From an uncultured Allobosea sp. (lineage in GTDB: Bacteria; Pseudomonadota; Alphaproteobacteria; Rhizobiales; Beijerinckiaceae): a stretch of 64,000 nt of DNA. This document shows positions 17,157-64,000 of the stretch, one piece after another (the stretch's first letter is position 1; each line of letters opens with the position of its first letter). Where the stretch lies: NCBI RefSeq assembly GCF_945956895.1, contig NZ_CAMFJF010000009.1:62001-126000 (forward strand), written 5' to 3'. The position numbers and the translations under genes are program-made. A model generated the notes under the pieces. It did no database searches. It was not told the DNA's origin and was given only the letters and a program-made list of their open reading frames with translations.

Positions 17157-18422
17157 TCAGCCCTTCGAACAGCCTTCCGCCTCGCGCTCATAGACGGCGA
17201 GGAAGGCCTTGCCCATCAGCGAGGATTCACCATCGATCAGCTTGCGGAGCGTCGCGGCGCGGATGGCCTGGAGCCCAGGATCGTCCGGCAGCGCCGATGC
17301 CGCGAGCTCGGCCAATGCCACCGCGAGCCTGTTCTGCCCCTGCCCTGCCAGGGCTTCCGCACGCTCGGCCAACTTGCGGGCGCCGCCGGCGAGTTCGGCG
17401 AGTTCGGCTGCGAGTTCGGTCGTGCGGGCGGGCTTCAGATGGGCCGCGTTGCCGTCGAACCAGCCCGCGTAGAAATGATAGATGCTGCGGACCAAAAACT
17501 CCGGATCGTCGTATTTCGGCAGCAGATAGGGCTTGGCGAGATAGCTCGCTGGGACCTTGACCTTGTTCAGGACGTCTTCGAGCGTCGCGCCCGAATTCAT
17601 CAGCGTGAGCGTCTCGTGGACGAGATGCTCCAGCGCCTCGGCGCCGTCGCTGAGCATACGCGCGACACGCTCCGCTCCGAAGACGACGGGGCCGTGGCCA
17701 GGGATCAGGATGTCCGGCCTGAGCTCCTCCATGCGTCGCAACGCCTGCGCCCATTCGGCCGCAAAGCGCTGGACCTTGCGGGGATTGCCGGCATTGGGGA
17801 ACACCCAGATCACGAAATCGCCGCTCGCCAGCACGCGTCGTTCCGGCAGCCAGACGAAGGTCGCGTCATCCGTCTCGCCGCGACCATGGAAGAGTTCGAG
17901 CCGCTCTCCGCCGATCGTGAGCGACAGGGTGTCGTCATAGACCTCGTCGGGACGGCGCTGGCCGATCGGGTAGACATAGCCGGGCATGTTGAACTGCTGG
18001 CTCTGCACGAGGCTGTTGAAGCCGTGCGAGTCGATATAGCGCTGCATGCGCCGGGCGACATTGCGATGCGCGACGATGCGCGGGCGCGGCCATCCTCGCG
18101 CATCCGCCTCCTCGTCGATCACCTTGATGCCGCTGGTATGGTCGATATGGCCGTGCGTGAAGATCACGGTATGGATCGGCCCATCGTCCCAGGAGCGGAT
18201 GACATCGAGCGTCTGCTTGGCGGTGTCCGGCTTGGCCGTGTCGATCAGGACGAGCCCTTCGCGCGTGCGGATCGCCGTCACACTGCCGCAGAAATAGGTC
18301 GTGTGGACGGTGATGATGTTGTCGTCGACCTGCGTGATCGCGCCGTGCGAGACCGCAGCGGTCCATTCCTCCATCGCGGCGGAGCCATCCCAGAGGCGCT
18401 CGAACAACGGGTCCTGTTTCAT
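17157..18422 (-). CDS. MBL-fold hydrolase with alkylsulfatase-type dimerisation domain
   Basis: A 421-residue metallo-beta-lactamase-fold enzyme. The zinc motif is intact: THGHIDH at about 106-112, with further histidines in IPGHGPV. The C-terminal half (LEDVLNKVKVPASYLAKPYLLPKYDD) matches the dimerisation domain of SdsA1/BDS1 alkylsulfatases. It lacks the SCP2-like lipid-binding tail that completes the roughly 650-residue enzymes and has no clear signal peptide, so it may be a short cytoplasmic relative. ATG 18422 is chosen over 18461 because GGAGG lies seven bases upstream. The substrate is uncertain. Confidence 0.82.
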   Translation of the reverse strand: MKQDPLFERLWDGSAAMEEWTAAVSHGAITQVDDNIITVHTTYFCGSVTAIRTREGLVLIDTAKPDTAKQTLDVIRSWDDGPIHTVIFTHGHIDHTSGIKVIDEEADARGWPRPRIVAHRNVARRMQRYIDSHGFNSLVQSQQFNMPGYVYPIGQRRPDEVYDDTLSLTIGGERLELFHGRGETDDATFVWLPERRVLASGDFVIWVFPNAGNPRKVQRFAAEWAQALRRMEELRPDILIPGHGPVVFGAERVARMLSDGAEALEHLVHETLTLMNSGATLEDVLNKVKVPASYLAKPYLLPKYDDPEFLVRSIYHFYAGWFDGNAAHLKPARTTELAAELAELAGGARKLAERAEALAGQGQNRLAVALAELAASALPDDPGLQAIRAATLRKLIDGESSLMGKAFLAVYEREAEGCSKG

Positions 18423-58215: not shown

Positions 58216-58306
58216 GGAGACGTGGCCGAGAGGCTGAAGGCACTCGTTTGCTAAATGAGCATACCCCACAAGGGTATCGAGGGTTCGAATCCCTCCGTCT
58301 CCGCCA
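58216..58306 (+). tRNA. tRNA-Ser (anticodon GCT)
   Basis: Acceptor stem GGAGACG pairs with CGTCTCC, the anticodon loop TTGCTAA gives GCT inside a CTCGT/ATGAG stem, a long variable arm (CATACCCCACAAGGGTATC) is present as in all serine tRNAs, and the T arm contains GGTTCGAATCC. The CCA end is encoded. The integrase gene begins about 100 bp downstream, so the 3' end is the likely phage attachment site. Confidence 0.97.
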
Positions 58307-58338: not shown

Positions 58339-58360
58339 CCGTTGATACACAACGGCTTTT
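58339..58360 (+). terminator. Possible tRNA-Ser terminator
   Basis: CCGTTG, loop ATACA, CAACGG, then CTTTT. The 6-bp stem is perfect but short. It may instead be part of the attachment region. Confidence 0.4.
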
Positions 58361-58371
58361 CCCATACCTCT

Positions 58372-58391
58372 GCTACAAAGTTTGCTACAAA
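58372..58391 (+). repeat. Direct repeats GCTACAAA, candidate integrase arm sites
   Basis: GCTACAAA occurs twice at 12-bp spacing just before the integrase start codon. Paired short direct repeats next to a tyrosine integrase are typical of arm-type binding sites. Confidence 0.45.
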
Positions 58392-58413
58392 ATCGCCTCT
58401 GGCAGAGGGTTTC

Positions 58414-60132
58414 ATGGCCGGCAAAATCAGGAACCTGCTCCCGCGTAATGGGCGCTATTATGCTCGCCTTACCGTCCCTGCTTTGCTTCGTCCGATCGTC
58501 GGTAAGCGCGAACTGACTGAGCCCCTGGGAGCCGACCGGACTGTCGCGATTCGCCTGCTATCATCTGCGATTCATCGCATGCAGATGGAATTGGATCAGG
58601 CCCGCGACCGCGTGGCTGCCCTTAGCCCTTCCGCACCCTCCCGGCGTCGCCCCATGAGCGTGCGGCAGATGGCCCTTGCCCACTTCGACCGCGAGCTTCA
58701 GCGCGACGACACAGCCCGCAGCCTGCCGAACGGCTATGACCCGGCGCATGAGGCGAAATTCCGCCCGACCTACTATTACGCGCTCAAGCGTGCCGCGAGC
58801 GGCGGCGCCGAGGACGACGAGCTTGCCGCCCTAATCCAATGGGCTGTTGACGAGTTCGCGAATGATGGTAGCCCCGTCCCTGCAAAAGGCACCGAGGAAT
58901 GGCGCTCTCTCGCCCGGATGCTCGCCGGCGTGAAGGCTGAATCGATTGAAAATCAGAACCGCCGCGACCGTGGGGAAGCGGACGCCCCGCCAAAGCACCC
59001 AATGCTGATCCCGGCGACGGAACTGCCCTCGACAACCGCCGATCCTTTGCGCGTCCGCATCATCAGCCCGGACAGCGCGAAGGCCCTCTCCGTCGTCCTG
59101 TCGGCGATGATGACAGAGAAGCAGGGCAAGCCCGGCACCGTCTATGAGTATGAAGTCGCCGTGCGCATGTTCGAGGAATTCCTAGGCGAGGCGAAGCCGG
59201 CCTATCGGATCACTCGGCAGGATGTCCTGGCCTACAAGAACGCCCTGCTCGAAACGCCCGCAAACTACACCAAGCGCTTCCCCGACAAGACGCTCCCCGA
59301 GACGATCCGGCTCAACAAGGCACGGAAAGAGCCCTTCCCTACACTCAACGCCACAACCATCAACGACAAATGGCTATCCCGGCTGAGCGCGCTTCTGACA
59401 TGGTGCGTCAACAACAGCGTCATTCCCGACAACCCGGCGAAGGGCGTGCGCGTGGATCAGAGCAACCGCGACCCTGACGACGACCGCGACTATTTCCGCG
59501 ACGCCGACCTTCAGAAGATATTCGCGGCGCCCCTGTTTGATCCCTCGCCAAAGCTGACGGAAAAGCGTTGGGCGCTGCTCATAGCGCTCTACTCCGGCAT
59601 GAGGGCATCGGAGATCGCCCAACTTCGCCTCGATAGCATCAGCGAAGTTCGCGGCGTGCTGGCATTCGCCGTGGAAGAGAAGACGAAGAACAAACAGTCG
59701 CGGCGGCTGGTCCCGGTGCACCGGACGCTGCTCGCGCTCGGCCTGCATGACCGCATCGCTCAACTGCGGAGGAACGGCACCGACCGCCTGTTCCCCGATT
59801 GGTTCCGGGATGGGCAAGCCATGATGCAGAGCGCGGAAGGAAAGAAGCGCGCCGTAAACCAGCCCTACAGTCAGTTTATCCCGCGCTGGTTCAATCGCAC
59901 CTATCTCCCGAAGGTCGGCATTCACGACCAGAACAAGGTATTCCACTCGTTCCGGCACACTTTAAAGACGGCACTAAAGCTCGCCGGCGTGCCCAAATCG
60001 GTTCGCGATGAGATCGCAGGGCAGGATGATCGCTCGGCTGGCGCCGGCTACGAGCACGAAACCTCGCTCGACGTGCTGAAGGAGGCTCTTGACCGTGTGG
60101 CCTATGATTTGCCGGAACTTAAGGCAACGTAA
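58414..60132 (+). CDS. Tyrosine-type site-specific integrase
   Basis: A 572-residue recombinase that would insert the element at the tRNA-Ser gene. The N-terminus (RNGRYYARLTVPALLRPIVGKREL) is of the DUF6538 type found in many alphaproteobacterial integrases. Catalytic motifs are visible: Arg in LYSGMRASEIAQLRL, the HxxR motif HSFRHT, and a late tyrosine in GAGYEHETSLDVL. ATG 58414 follows AGAGG and is chosen over 58342. It is long for the class because of an extended N-terminal half. Confidence 0.92.
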   Translation: MAGKIRNLLPRNGRYYARLTVPALLRPIVGKRELTEPLGADRTVAIRLLSSAIHRMQMELDQARDRVAALSPSAPSRRRPMSVRQMALAHFDRELQRDDTARSLPNGYDPAHEAKFRPTYYYALKRAASGGAEDDELAALIQWAVDEFANDGSPVPAKGTEEWRSLARMLAGVKAESIENQNRRDRGEADAPPKHPMLIPATELPSTTADPLRVRIISPDSAKALSVVLSAMMTEKQGKPGTVYEYEVAVRMFEEFLGEAKPAYRITRQDVLAYKNALLETPANYTKRFPDKTLPETIRLNKARKEPFPTLNATTINDKWLSRLSALLTWCVNNSVIPDNPAKGVRVDQSNRDPDDDRDYFRDADLQKIFAAPLFDPSPKLTEKRWALLIALYSGMRASEIAQLRLDSISEVRGVLAFAVEEKTKNKQSRRLVPVHRTLLALGLHDRIAQLRRNGTDRLFPDWFRDGQAMMQSAEGKKRAVNQPYSQFIPRWFNRTYLPKVGIHDQNKVFHSFRHTLKTALKLAGVPKSVRDEIAGQDDRSAGAGYEHETSLDVLKEALDRVAYDLPELKAT

Positions 60133-60220
60133 CGTTAGAAGCGGCTCAGCCAGCGATGACCCGCTTTCCTAATCGTGATTTGACGCTAAAAGGCAACGAC
60201 TACGCACGGAGCCCTGACCT

Positions 60221-60847
60221 ATGAATTCGGCCCTTGAGTTCGTTTCACAGAATATTGGCGTGATCGGCGGATGGACCGCCGTTTTCACGGTTTTTTGCGG
60301 CATCACTGCGTGGGTTGCGAATTTTGTAGCCAATCGCAGCATGGAAAAACACAAATCTACGTTAAACTCCGACCTGGAAACGCACAAATCTTCACTTTCT
60401 CAAAAAACTGAAGCATTGAAATCGGAGCTTAATCAGAGCGCAGAGCGACTTAAACTTGATCTGAAGAAACAAGAGATCATCTTTAACAAAGAAATTGATT
60501 GCTTTTCTGCATTCGCAAAATTAAGGAGATCTGTTTTTCCGAAAGCAAATTACCCTGATTACGATTCCTATGATGCCAGCGTCGATATAAATGACAATCT
60601 TTTCAAGATTGAACAATTGATTGAAGATTTTGAAATATCCCATGGAGTCGCCTTGCGAGAAGACGCCAGAATTATGCTAGAGAGCTGCAAACAGATTTGT
60701 TCAAATTACAAATTTGAACGCTTTGACAACCCAGAAAGAACGTTGTCAAAGCAGGCCGAAGAAGGTGCTTTCGAACTTATGCGGAAATTGACCGAAGTCG
60801 AATCAGCCATGCATCGATCGATTAAAACTTGGGATGCACCTAAGTAG
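60221..60847 (+). CDS. Membrane-anchored coiled-coil protein, prophage cargo
   Basis: A 208-residue protein I do not recognise. It has one N-terminal membrane helix (VIGGWTAVFTVFCGITAWVANFVA), then a long charged coiled coil (about residues 42-90, with repeats such as HKSTLNSDLETHKSSLSQKTE), then a helical domain. The gene is much richer in A and T than its flanks and has its own terminator-like hairpin, so it is probably a separately expressed accessory gene. Membrane anchor plus coiled coil is seen in superinfection-exclusion and defence proteins, but the function is unknown. Confidence 0.75.
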   Translation: MNSALEFVSQNIGVIGGWTAVFTVFCGITAWVANFVANRSMEKHKSTLNSDLETHKSSLSQKTEALKSELNQSAERLKLDLKKQEIIFNKEIDCFSAFAKLRRSVFPKANYPDYDSYDASVDINDNLFKIEQLIEDFEISHGVALREDARIMLESCKQICSNYKFERFDNPERTLSKQAEEGAFELMRKLTEVESAMHRSIKTWDAPK

Positions 60848-60868
60848 GATTTTGATCCTAATTTCTAT
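60845..60868 (+). terminator. Terminator-like hairpin after the cargo gene
   Basis: TAGGAT, loop TTTG, ATCCTA, followed by an AT-rich tract AATTTCTATT. It starts at the stop codon. The stem is perfect but weak. Confidence 0.45.
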
Positions 60869-60898
60869 TGCTCCGCGATTCCATGTGTGAGACAATTC

Positions 60899-60918
60899 TT
60901 CACCGTTAAATTGGTGAA
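60899..60918 (+). repeat. Hairpin at the portal ribosome binding site
   Basis: TTCACC, eight-base loop, GGTGAA. The right arm overlaps the GAAGG Shine-Dalgarno sequence of the portal gene, so it could reduce translation or be a protein-binding site. Confidence 0.4.
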
Positions 60919-60927
60919 GGTTGAGTT

Positions 60928-62166
60928 GTGTTCCGCGAGTTAGTCGGCAGCGTAAGGAAGTCACTCGGATTTCAGTTCGACCGGAAGGCAATCCCAGCTT
61001 CTGATCCTGCGTTCTCTGAGCTATTCGGCGCGCTGCCGACTGCCTCCGGTGTTTCGGTTACTCCGCATACCGCCCTTCGCGTCCCGGCTGTCTTTCATGC
61101 GATCAGGCTGATCTCTGAGAACGCCGGCTCAATCCCGTTTAAGGTCTATCGCGACGGCAGCAAGGAAGCCGCGAAGGATCACCCCGCCTATCGGCTCGTC
61201 CACAATCGCGCCGCCGACCATCTCAGCGCTGCCCAGTTCCGCACGGACCTGACTTGGGACGCGCTGCTTCATGGTGCTGGCTTCGCGCAGGTGATCCGCA
61301 CCGATGATGGTCGCCCGTATGCGTTCCGATATCTGCCGCCCGGCACCTGCCGTCGCGAGATCGATGATTTCGGCGAGCCCTATTTCATCGTCACGCTGAA
61401 GGATCGCCGTCAGGTCCGGCTCTCTACTCGTGATGTGCTCTATCTGCCGGCGCCCGGTTACACCTCGCCCGTCAACCTCGGCAGGGAGGCTATCGGCGTT
61501 GCGATGCTCTTGGAGCGTCACGCCGCCAAGTTCTTCGGCTCTGGCGCCCGCCCGTCCGGCGTCCTCTGGAACGAGAACAAGGTTCCAGACAATGACAAGG
61601 GCAGCACTGTCGTCGGCAACATGCTCGCCGATTATCGCAAGGCCTTCCTCGGCGAAGGAGATTCCCGGCCGCTGATCCTTCAGGGCGGCTGGCGCTACCA
61701 GGCCGCGACGATGAACAGCACCGACGCGCAGTTCATCGAAAACCGCGTTGAGCAGACCCGCGAGATTGCCCGCCTCTTCGGCGTCCCGCCGACCATGCTT
61801 TTCGACCTTTCGGACGGCACCTACGCCAACACCGAGCAGATGGAAGCCAGTTTCCAGCGCGTTGCGCTTCGGCCGTGGCTCGACCGCTGGCAGGACGCCT
61901 ATGCGACCGTGCTGCTCACCGAGGACGAGCAGGACGAATTCTACATTGAAGCCGTCATTGACGACCTTCAGCGCGCCGACGCGAAGGCCAAGGCGGAAGT
62001 CTTCAGCAAGCATCGCGCGGCCGGCAACGTCACCGCGAATGAGGTTCGCGCCACTATGAACATGCCGGCCCTGCCGGGTGGTGATGTGCTGGCGAACCCC
62101 TTCACCACGACCGGCGACACCGCCGGCAGCAATGACAACCCCGACACCGGAAAGGACGCCGCTTGA
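60928..62166 (+). CDS. HK97-family phage portal protein
   Basis: A 412-residue portal monomer; twelve would form the DNA-entry vertex of the capsid. Family features are SVTPHTALRVPAVFHAIRLISENAGSIPFKVYR, the GREAIGVAMLLERHAAKFFGSGARPSGVL segment and IARLFGVPPTMLFDLSDGTYANTEQMEASF. It starts at GTG with GAAGG seven bases upstream. Its TGA overlaps the TTG start of the next gene. No terminase gene precedes it, which is unusual. Confidence 0.94.
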   Translation: MFRELVGSVRKSLGFQFDRKAIPASDPAFSELFGALPTASGVSVTPHTALRVPAVFHAIRLISENAGSIPFKVYRDGSKEAAKDHPAYRLVHNRAADHLSAAQFRTDLTWDALLHGAGFAQVIRTDDGRPYAFRYLPPGTCRREIDDFGEPYFIVTLKDRRQVRLSTRDVLYLPAPGYTSPVNLGREAIGVAMLLERHAAKFFGSGARPSGVLWNENKVPDNDKGSTVVGNMLADYRKAFLGEGDSRPLILQGGWRYQAATMNSTDAQFIENRVEQTREIARLFGVPPTMLFDLSDGTYANTEQMEASFQRVALRPWLDRWQDAYATVLLTEDEQDEFYIEAVIDDLQRADAKAKAEVFSKHRAAGNVTANEVRATMNMPALPGGDVLANPFTTTGDTAGSNDNPDTGKDAA

Positions 62167-62525
62167 GCGACGTTACGACCGTCGCATTCTTCGGCGACGC
62201 AGAGCACTCCTTTGCACTGACGCCATGGGCGCAGCTTGAACTTGAGAAGCTAACCGGCATCGGCATGGGCGCGCTGTGTCTTCGGCTTCCGCAGGGCGAT
62301 TTCCGCATTGTCGAGATCGTCGAGACCATCCGGCTCGCGTTGATCGGTGGCGGTATGGCTCCGCAGGCTGCCGCACATCTTGTCGAGACCTACGCCAAGC
62401 CCCGCCCCATCGGCGAGACGTTCCCGCTCGCGGTTCGCATCCTTTACCGGCTCTGGAATGGCAAGGACCCGGAGTCCGAAGCCGAGGGCCAGGACGACGA
62501 CCCGCTCATGGTGTCCGATGTCTGA
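62163..62525 (+). CDS. GTA-gp10-like phage protein (tail assembly chaperone family)
   Basis: A 120-residue protein. It resembles the family called GTA-gp10/Phage_TAC_11: FALTPWAQLELEKLTGIGMGALCLRL, then IVEIVETIRLALIGGGMAPQAAAHLVETY and RPIGETFPLAVRILYRLWNG. It starts at TTG overlapping the portal stop codon and overlaps the protease gene by eight bases, so it is translated within the head-gene cluster. In gene transfer agents this gene normally lies in the tail region after the capsid, so its position here is odd. Confidence 0.78.
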   Translation: MSDVTTVAFFGDAEHSFALTPWAQLELEKLTGIGMGALCLRLPQGDFRIVEIVETIRLALIGGGMAPQAAAHLVETYAKPRPIGETFPLAVRILYRLWNGKDPESEAEGQDDDPLMVSDV

Positions 62526-63012
62526 GCGCCTTGAGATCAAGGCCGTGCTCTCGATCGACGACGCCGGCACCATCACCGGGAACGCATGGCCTTTCGGCAG
62601 CGCTGATAGCGTCGGAGACATCATCACCAAGGGCGCCTTCAACATCCTCGGCGAAGACACGCCGATGCTGCTTCAGCACGATCCCGGCCAGCCTGTCGGC
62701 ATCTGGAACGAGATCACCGAAACTGCTGACGGCCTTCAGGTGAAGGGGCGCCTCTTCATTGAGGAAAGCCAGCGCGCCCGCGCCGTCCGCTCCATGGTGA
62801 AGAGTGGCCTCATCTCCGGCCTGTCCATTGGCTTCCGCCCCATCGAGGCGAAGCAGCGCGGCCGGAACCGCATCATTTCCAAGCTCGACCTCTTCGAAAT
62901 CTCTGTCGTCCGCAATCCGGCCCATCCCAAGGCCCGGATCACGAACGCCAAGGACGCCACGGCTGCCATTGCCGAGGCAATCAACCGCGCCGCCGTGGCG
63001 CTCAATCCCTGA
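62518..63012 (+). CDS. HK97-family prohead protease
   Basis: A 164-residue serine protease that trims the capsid protein during head maturation. ALLWNHD-type region reads MLLQHDPGQPVGIWNEI, giving the histidine. The serine motif is KSGLISGLSIGFRPIEAK, and the segment DLFEISVVRNPAHPKARI matches family ends (EISVVxxPAxxxA). ATG 62518 overlaps the previous gene by eight bases; the ORF track start at 62347 is too long. It precedes the capsid gene in normal HK97 order. Confidence 0.92.
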   Translation: MSERLEIKAVLSIDDAGTITGNAWPFGSADSVGDIITKGAFNILGEDTPMLLQHDPGQPVGIWNEITETADGLQVKGRLFIEESQRARAVRSMVKSGLISGLSIGFRPIEAKQRGRNRIISKLDLFEISVVRNPAHPKARITNAKDATAAIAEAINRAAVALNP

Positions 63013-63022
63013 AAGGACCAAC

Positions 63023-64000
63023 GTGAACAACCTCGCCCATATTGAACTGAAGTCCGACGACGCCGACAACGTGCCGGCCGATGTCGCTTCGGCGCTCGCC
63101 AATCTGACGAGTTCCGTGGACGCCCGCCTCAAGGCTATCGAGACGAAGAGCGACGCCCGCCTCGACAAGCTGGAAGCCAAGGCCAATCGCCTGCCGGCTT
63201 CGAACGACAATCAGGCCGAGGACGCCCTCGAAACCAAGGCGTTCAGCGACTTCCTGCGCACCGGCCAGATTGACCAGAAGGCCCTGACGGTCGCGAACGA
63301 TGCGCCGGGATATGTGCTCGCGCCGGAAGAGACCACGAGCGAGTTCATCCGCAACCTTGTCGAGTTCTCCCCGGTGCGCGCGATCGCGGACGTGAAGTCT
63401 GCCGGCTCGCACACCGTCATCCTGCCGAAGCGCCTTTCGGTCACGAATGCGAAGTGGAAGGGCGAAGCCATCGCGTCGGAAGCGTCCGAGCCGACCTTCG
63501 GCGAGATGGAAATCGCCATCAAGGAGCTGAACACCCACGTCGATATCAGCAACTGGCTTCTGGAGGACGCGCAGAACGTCGAGTCCGAGGTTCGGCTTGC
63601 GCTCGCCGAGGACTTCGGCGCCAAGGAAGGCACCGCCTTCGTCAACGGCAGCGCCGCCGCCGAGCCGAAGGGCTTCATGACCGAAGCCGGCATCGCACAG
63701 TCCCTCAACGGCCATGCGACGAACCTGTCGGCCGATGCGCTGATCTCTCTCATGTATGCCCTGCCGGGCGTTTATCGCAGCCGTGGCACTTGGGCCATGA
63801 ACGGCTCGACGCTTGCGACCATCCGCAAGCTGAAGGACGGCAACGGCAATTACCTGTGGCAGCCCAGCTATCAGGCCGGCCAGCCCGAGACGATCCTCGG
63901 CCGCCCGGTTGTCGAGCTGATCGACATGCCGGACGTTGCCGCCAACGCTTTCCCGGTCATCTTCGGCGACTTCAAGGCCGGCTATCGCATCTATGACCGG
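63023..64000 (+). CDS. HK97-family major capsid protein (partial, runs off window)
   Basis: An open frame from GTG 63023, with AAAGGA upstream, to the window edge (326 codons, no stop, so absent from the ORF track). The first part (about 1-65) is a delta-like charged scaffold helix (DARLKAIETKSDARLDKLEAK), probably removed by the protease. The body has GYVLAPEETTSEFIRNLVEFSPVRAIADVKS, AKEGTAFVNGS (FGAKEGTAFVNGS) and LGRPVVELIDMPDVAANAFPVIFGDFKAGY, typical of HK97 capsids. Confidence 0.93.
   Translation, partial: MNNLAHIELKSDDADNVPADVASALANLTSSVDARLKAIETKSDARLDKLEAKANRLPASNDNQAEDALETKAFSDFLRTGQIDQKALTVANDAPGYVLAPEETTSEFIRNLVEFSPVRAIADVKSAGSHTVILPKRLSVTNAKWKGEAIASEASEPTFGEMEIAIKELNTHVDISNWLLEDAQNVESEVRLALAEDFGAKEGTAFVNGSAAAEPKGFMTEAGIAQSLNGHATNLSADALISLMYALPGVYRSRGTWAMNGSTLATIRKLKDGNGNYLWQPSYQAGQPETILGRPVVELIDMPDVAANAFPVIFGDFKAGYRIYDR

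Follow-up and report, generated by a model that had tools for sequence, protein, structure and literature searches.

Does the interval between the integrase and portal genes of an integrated element hold a genuine cargo gene, and what might its product do? We analyzed a 64,000-nucleotide stretch of DNA, hereafter the window, in which an initial annotation had described an AT-rich gene at this position as a separately transcribed accessory gene (moron) of a prophage.

A foreign gene between integrase and portal

The interval at 60133-60927 measures exactly 795 bp, from the integrase stop (60132) to the portal start (60928), and contains a single long open reading frame (ORF) on the same strand as both flanking genes. 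The features of the region are as follows.

58216-58306, + strand: tRNA-Ser(GCT), presumed integration site, directly followed by the integrase gene (ARAGORN)
58342-60132, + strand: tyrosine integrase, open frame from 58342 with a likely ATG at 58414 (Pfam Phage_integrase, 7e-10; PHROG integrase, 4e-34)
60221-60847, + strand: cargo gene for a membrane-anchored repeat-stalk protein of 208 aa (ORF, Shine-Dalgarno sequence, composition, and relatives L002, L045, and L046)
60928-62166, + strand: portal protein, with which the structural operon begins (Pfam Phage_portal, 5.7e-80)

The cargo ORF starts with ATG, with GGAG located 9 nt upstream, and an ORF of at least this length arose in 8 of 5,000 Markov simulations of the interval (P ~0.002). 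Its GC content is 0.41 and its GC3 0.44, compared to 0.62 and 0.75 for the integrase and 0.63 and 0.77 for the portal, a composition unlike that of its neighbors, as is typical of morons. The cargo gene is a genuine gene, and the AT-rich gene first proposed here is confirmed, in an interval bounded exactly by integrase and portal.

The integrase-portal interval is a cargo slot

We surveyed the same position in related elements by scanning IMG/VR with the portal, which yielded 9 and then 72 loci, to which the window, a congener (G462), and G299 were added. Counts refer to the 61 loci in which an integrase could be placed upstream of the portal. The gap between the two genes was 82-141 bp in 38 of these (empty) and 316-1,545 bp in the other 23 (filled), although the 61 loci are not all independent, as L116-L119 and L121 hardly differ from one another and one insert is common to L079 and G462. 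Roughly a dozen unrelated ORFs, in either orientation, occupied the filled slots, and some inserts had no clear gene. The cargoes included the following.

G462 and L079, − strand: protein of 434 aa
L091: two membrane helices plus a charged helical stretch
L088 and L105: multi-helix membrane proteins
L077: GGDEF/PilZ protein
L087, − strand: HNH-like protein (by eye)

No PADLOC model matched among nine slot cargoes scanned, nor did one match the G462 cargo, and profile comparison detected no homology between the cargo protein and two slot cargoes of similar layout. The integrase-portal position is thus a true cargo slot with turnover, usually of one gene. Since 38 slots are empty and 23 are filled with unrelated genes, the designation of the gene as a moron is supported: with its foreign composition and the turnover at this hotspot, it is an acquired accessory gene.

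The cargo protein is rare and has few relatives

Searches with the cargo protein matched no curated family, no solved fold, and no isolated phage; nothing significant came from searching the PDB by sequence and by fold, and no close relative was present in IMG/VR, 50,697 phages, or 72,556 plasmids. Profile searches did not identify it as a known structural, holin, or packaging protein, any of which would have contradicted the original assignment. Matches to DUF1664, ZapG, apolipoprotein, and spanins were rejected as a generic likeness of a membrane helix followed by a repetitive helix. PADLOC 2.0 contained no full-length defense model for the protein; its best matches, gop (E 0.0029) and PDC-M40C (E 0.0052), were both partial, in agreement with the earlier statement that the gene could not be linked to a described defense family.

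Three convincing relatives were found, each aligning with the cargo protein along its whole length at 28-31% identity over the alignment: in Roseisalinus antarcticus (L045), in a Paracoccus metagenome genome (L046), and in G145 (L002). The protein is rare: with a profile search included, 298 genomes from its order gave a single match besides the cargo protein, and 385 from its class gave none. The Roseisalinus gene lies in a prophage, on a contig that is also catalogued as viral in IMG/VR, and was the sole match in an IMG/VR profile search. It has terminase genes on one side and a DNA methylase gene on the other, beyond which lie restriction genes of the GmrSD type and of type I; its product had no close relative in the phages or plasmids searched. 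The G145 gene is located behind an AAA ATPase gene and adjoins a probable transposase gene (by eye), and the neighbors of the Paracoccus gene, whose product matched no model in a PADLOC scan, are metabolic genes. These three differing settings fit an accessory gene.

A fourth candidate, L044 from G1130, is doubtful, its similarity being confined to the helix and stalk. Behind it (L150, 9191-11523) is an ORF of 185 aa with an RNNLFH stretch that by eye resembles a HEPN nuclease motif; this ORF had no match in Pfam.

A single membrane helix with an 11-residue-repeat stalk

Three parts can be distinguished in the cargo protein.

60254-60322, + strand: codons of a single membrane helix, approximately residues 12-34 (hydropathy)
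60344-60475, + strand: codons of four 11-residue repeats, residues 42-85 (offset-11 self-identity; 11-column gap relative to the relatives)
60566-60829, + strand: codons of the C-terminal helical part, residues 116-203 (AlphaFold helices 116-144, 147-162, and 172-203)

Within residues 42-85, 14 of 44 positions were identical at an offset of 11, compared to a shuffle mean of 3.7, and none of 5,000 shuffles reached this value. Alignment with the three good relatives placed a gap of exactly 11 residues inside the repeat region, where the relatives have one repeat fewer, and the stalk therefore seems to change length by single repeat units. By contrast, a hydrophobic periodicity of 3.4-3.8 residues was not significant, since 13% of shuffles matched it, and a classical heptad coiled coil is accordingly not demonstrated. 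Of the membrane helix and long coiled coil read from the sequence at the outset, the single helix stands and the coiled coil is better described as a repeat stalk. The AlphaFold model (mean pLDDT, 75) consists of one helix spanning residues 4-104 plus the three shorter C-terminal helices, with poor definition of the links between helices. No basic residues precede the membrane helix and several follow it, a charge pattern which suggests that the stalk and C terminus are cytoplasmic.

The hairpins downstream belong to the portal operon

The initial annotation had taken a hairpin after the stop codon as the mark of a separately transcribed gene. The region after the cargo stop does contain two hairpins and folds better than its shuffles (z, −3.1).

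60845-60860: palindrome TAGGAT-TTTG-ATCCTA, which includes the cargo stop codon and is operator-like (recurrence in L003; similar palindromes in empty elements)
60897-60920, + strand: hairpin just upstream of the portal, its 3′ arm containing the likely portal Shine-Dalgarno sequence (varying yet pairing stems; fold)

A terminator scan flagged neither hairpin, and no sigma70-like promoter was found upstream of the cargo gene on the + strand. The promoter and terminator of its own that would characterize a moron were thus not seen in these consensus scans, which are weak tests. As no promoter-like site was found on the + strand, read-through from the integrase is as likely as a separate cargo promoter.

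An exact copy of the palindrome lies at L003 18942-18958, beyond the element's last small gene, and a copy with 3 mismatches at 18380-18396, upstream of that gene; in L003 the pattern was found 3 times against an expectation of 0.04. Similar TCCTA/TAGGA palindromes often occur in the integrase-portal interval of empty elements, where a conserved promoter-like stretch, GATTC...TGAGACAAT, comes next and then a second hairpin immediately ahead of the portal start. Across elements this second hairpin has about ten different stems, all of which still pair, and a hairpin score attained by 11% of simulated sequences was attained by 56% of loci. Because similar palindromes and pairing hairpins are also present in cargo-free elements, both hairpins belong to the control region of the portal operon; the one after the stop codon is no terminator of the cargo gene, and its reading as a mark of separate transcription is not upheld. 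The hairpin before the portal, which would bury the likely Shine-Dalgarno sequence, looks like a translational control of the structural operon, and the palindrome at 60845-60860 may serve as an operator. We also note that TAGGA-N6-TCCTA palindromes occur around both the portal control region and the last small gene, the latter possibly encoding a DNA-binding protein (by eye).

The carrier resembles a capsid-forming satellite

The carrier occupies 58342-64000 of the window and extends in L003 to about 18855. Its genes are, in order, integrase, cargo, portal, GTA-gp10-like, protease, capsid (assigned from its position and its likeness across elements rather than from a profile), HNH, connector, completion protein, TerS, TerL, HK97-gp10-like, tape measure, and a small gene. 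No attR for the window tRNA was found up to the contig end. The G462 element (L034, L151) is 18.7 kb long and bounded by a 26-bp repeat of a tRNA-Thr end; close to the attR of this complete element is an accessory-looking gene with an N-terminal membrane helix (L151, 3215-3895, − strand), perhaps marking a second cargo site. Among the IMG/VR portal loci, 54 are on contigs of >12 kb (median length, 16.2 kb).

No lysis or replication family was recognized in 27 further proteins scanned, mostly located after the tape measure in relatives, nor were tail-fiber genes recognized in the carrier family. The portal has ~30-32% identity to the best isolated-phage matches listed and 46-63% to IMG/VR elements, and we found no description of this compact family in the literature searched. 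Rather than the ordinary prophage originally supposed, the carrier is a compact (~14-19 kb) capsid-and-packaging element that resembles capsid-forming satellites. The ~70 IMG/VR loci form a candidate satellite family, with a tape-measure gene that is unexplained.

Possible functions of the cargo protein

Our best guess, a tentative one, is that the protein is a membrane-anchored slot cargo acting against competing phages from a compact satellite-like element. We favor this because of the analogy to P2/P4 hotspots and the restriction-gene company of one relative, which make antiphage protection plausible. In such a scheme, the protein would be made in cells carrying the element and anchored in the inner membrane by its single N-terminal helix, the stalk of 11-residue repeats holding the small helical domain in the cytoplasm. 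It would probably oligomerize through the stalk and, at the membrane, block phage DNA entry (superinfection exclusion); alternatively, once triggered, it might damage the membrane (abortive infection). We counted in favor the slot turnover, foreign composition, membrane helix, repeats, helical model, and basic residues behind the helix, as well as the location of one relative by restriction genes (Roseisalinus) and of another behind an AAA ATPase gene (G145). Counted against were the lack of a trustworthy defense-model match, of a close phage or plasmid relative, and of a visible promoter, and the setting of the Paracoccus relative amid metabolic genes.

The gene might instead serve the element's own cycle, for instance by detecting or impeding a helper phage at the membrane or by affecting the timing of mobilization, as would suit a satellite-like carrier and a position beside the structural-operon control region. 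Most related elements have an empty slot, however, so the gene is dispensable for the core cycle, and relatives also occur outside such elements; we regard this role as unlikely. Rarity, AT richness, and the failure to find a promoter would also be consistent with a recently acquired passenger that is without benefit to the element and is being lost. Against this, the 208-codon frame is intact, the Shine-Dalgarno sequence, membrane helix, and repeats are preserved, and the relatives are conserved over their full length, and a mere passenger is thus unlikely. Alteration of the host, e.g., interference with division or the envelope, is suggested by a general layout shared with ZapG (YhcB), a single N-terminal membrane helix with a helical stalk, and by weak ZapG matches (Pfam, E 0.039; NCBIfam, E 0.013). 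These matches score far below the curated cut-offs (14.4 bits versus 33.5 and 15.4 versus 150), other stalk proteins match equally weakly, and unlike ZapG the cargo protein has 11-residue repeats and an extra C-terminal part, making this explanation quite improbable.

An N-terminal membrane helix with a helical stalk, together with a weak Rz-like match (E 0.036), could also point to a lysis protein, either an inner-membrane spanin or a holin. Spanin stalks are periplasmic, whereas the charge flanks here suggest a cytoplasmic one; the scan of downstream genes revealed no lysis family, and thus neither the partner nor the endolysin expected near an Rz-like spanin, and the cargo gene is optional. 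We consider a lysis function extremely unlikely. A membrane toxin of a toxin-antitoxin or abortive pair, similar to P4 Gop (gop-beta-cII), would agree with gop as the best PADLOC match and with a membrane-type protein encoded in a satellite hotspot, comparable to the one in which P4 gop sits (PMC9122126). This match is limited to the helix and stalk (residues 8-76, corresponding to profile positions 28-90 of 126), so that full-length similarity is lacking, and the cargo protein is longer than Gop, with repeats and a C-terminal part. Moreover, the slot has room for one gene and hence none for a beta or cII partner, and we judge a Gop-like toxin very unlikely.

Comparison with satellites and P2/P4 hotspots

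By itself, the antiphage candidate is one more uncharacterized cargo gene of an ordinary kind, encoding a new protein. The slot is more important than the gene: it is a defined site that can be located via the adjoining portal, and many short unknown genes could be gathered there. It also draws attention to a family of small capsid-encoding elements without a close portal match among isolated phages. Speculatively, and with some doubt on our part, the slot of this carrier family, which has no isolated phages to represent it, may hold a store of single-gene antiphage proteins not yet described, several of which would act at the membrane; the cargo protein would be the first known of a new kind that relies on an 11-residue-repeat stalk.

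Capsid-forming satellites encode capsid and packaging genes and depend on a helper for tails (PMC10690885). Like the capsid-forming PICIs, the carrier is compact and encodes an integrase, capsid, portal, protease, connectors, terminases, and HNH. It differs from them in having tape-measure, tail-terminator/tube-type, and chaperone-like genes, where PICIs of this type have no tail genes, and in the position of the portal directly after the integrase.

Slots comparable to the integrase-portal slot in P2/P4 carry validated antiphage systems, whose membrane proteins are considered suicide effectors (Rousset et al. 2022, PMC9122126). The slot differs from P2/P4 hotspots in its integrase-portal location, in its carrier, and in usually holding one gene, often being empty, and containing no recognized known system. 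As in those hotspots, it is a small high-turnover locus between two conserved genes, with unrelated contents that include some membrane proteins, and its cargoes could be tested jointly against phages, as for P2 and P4.
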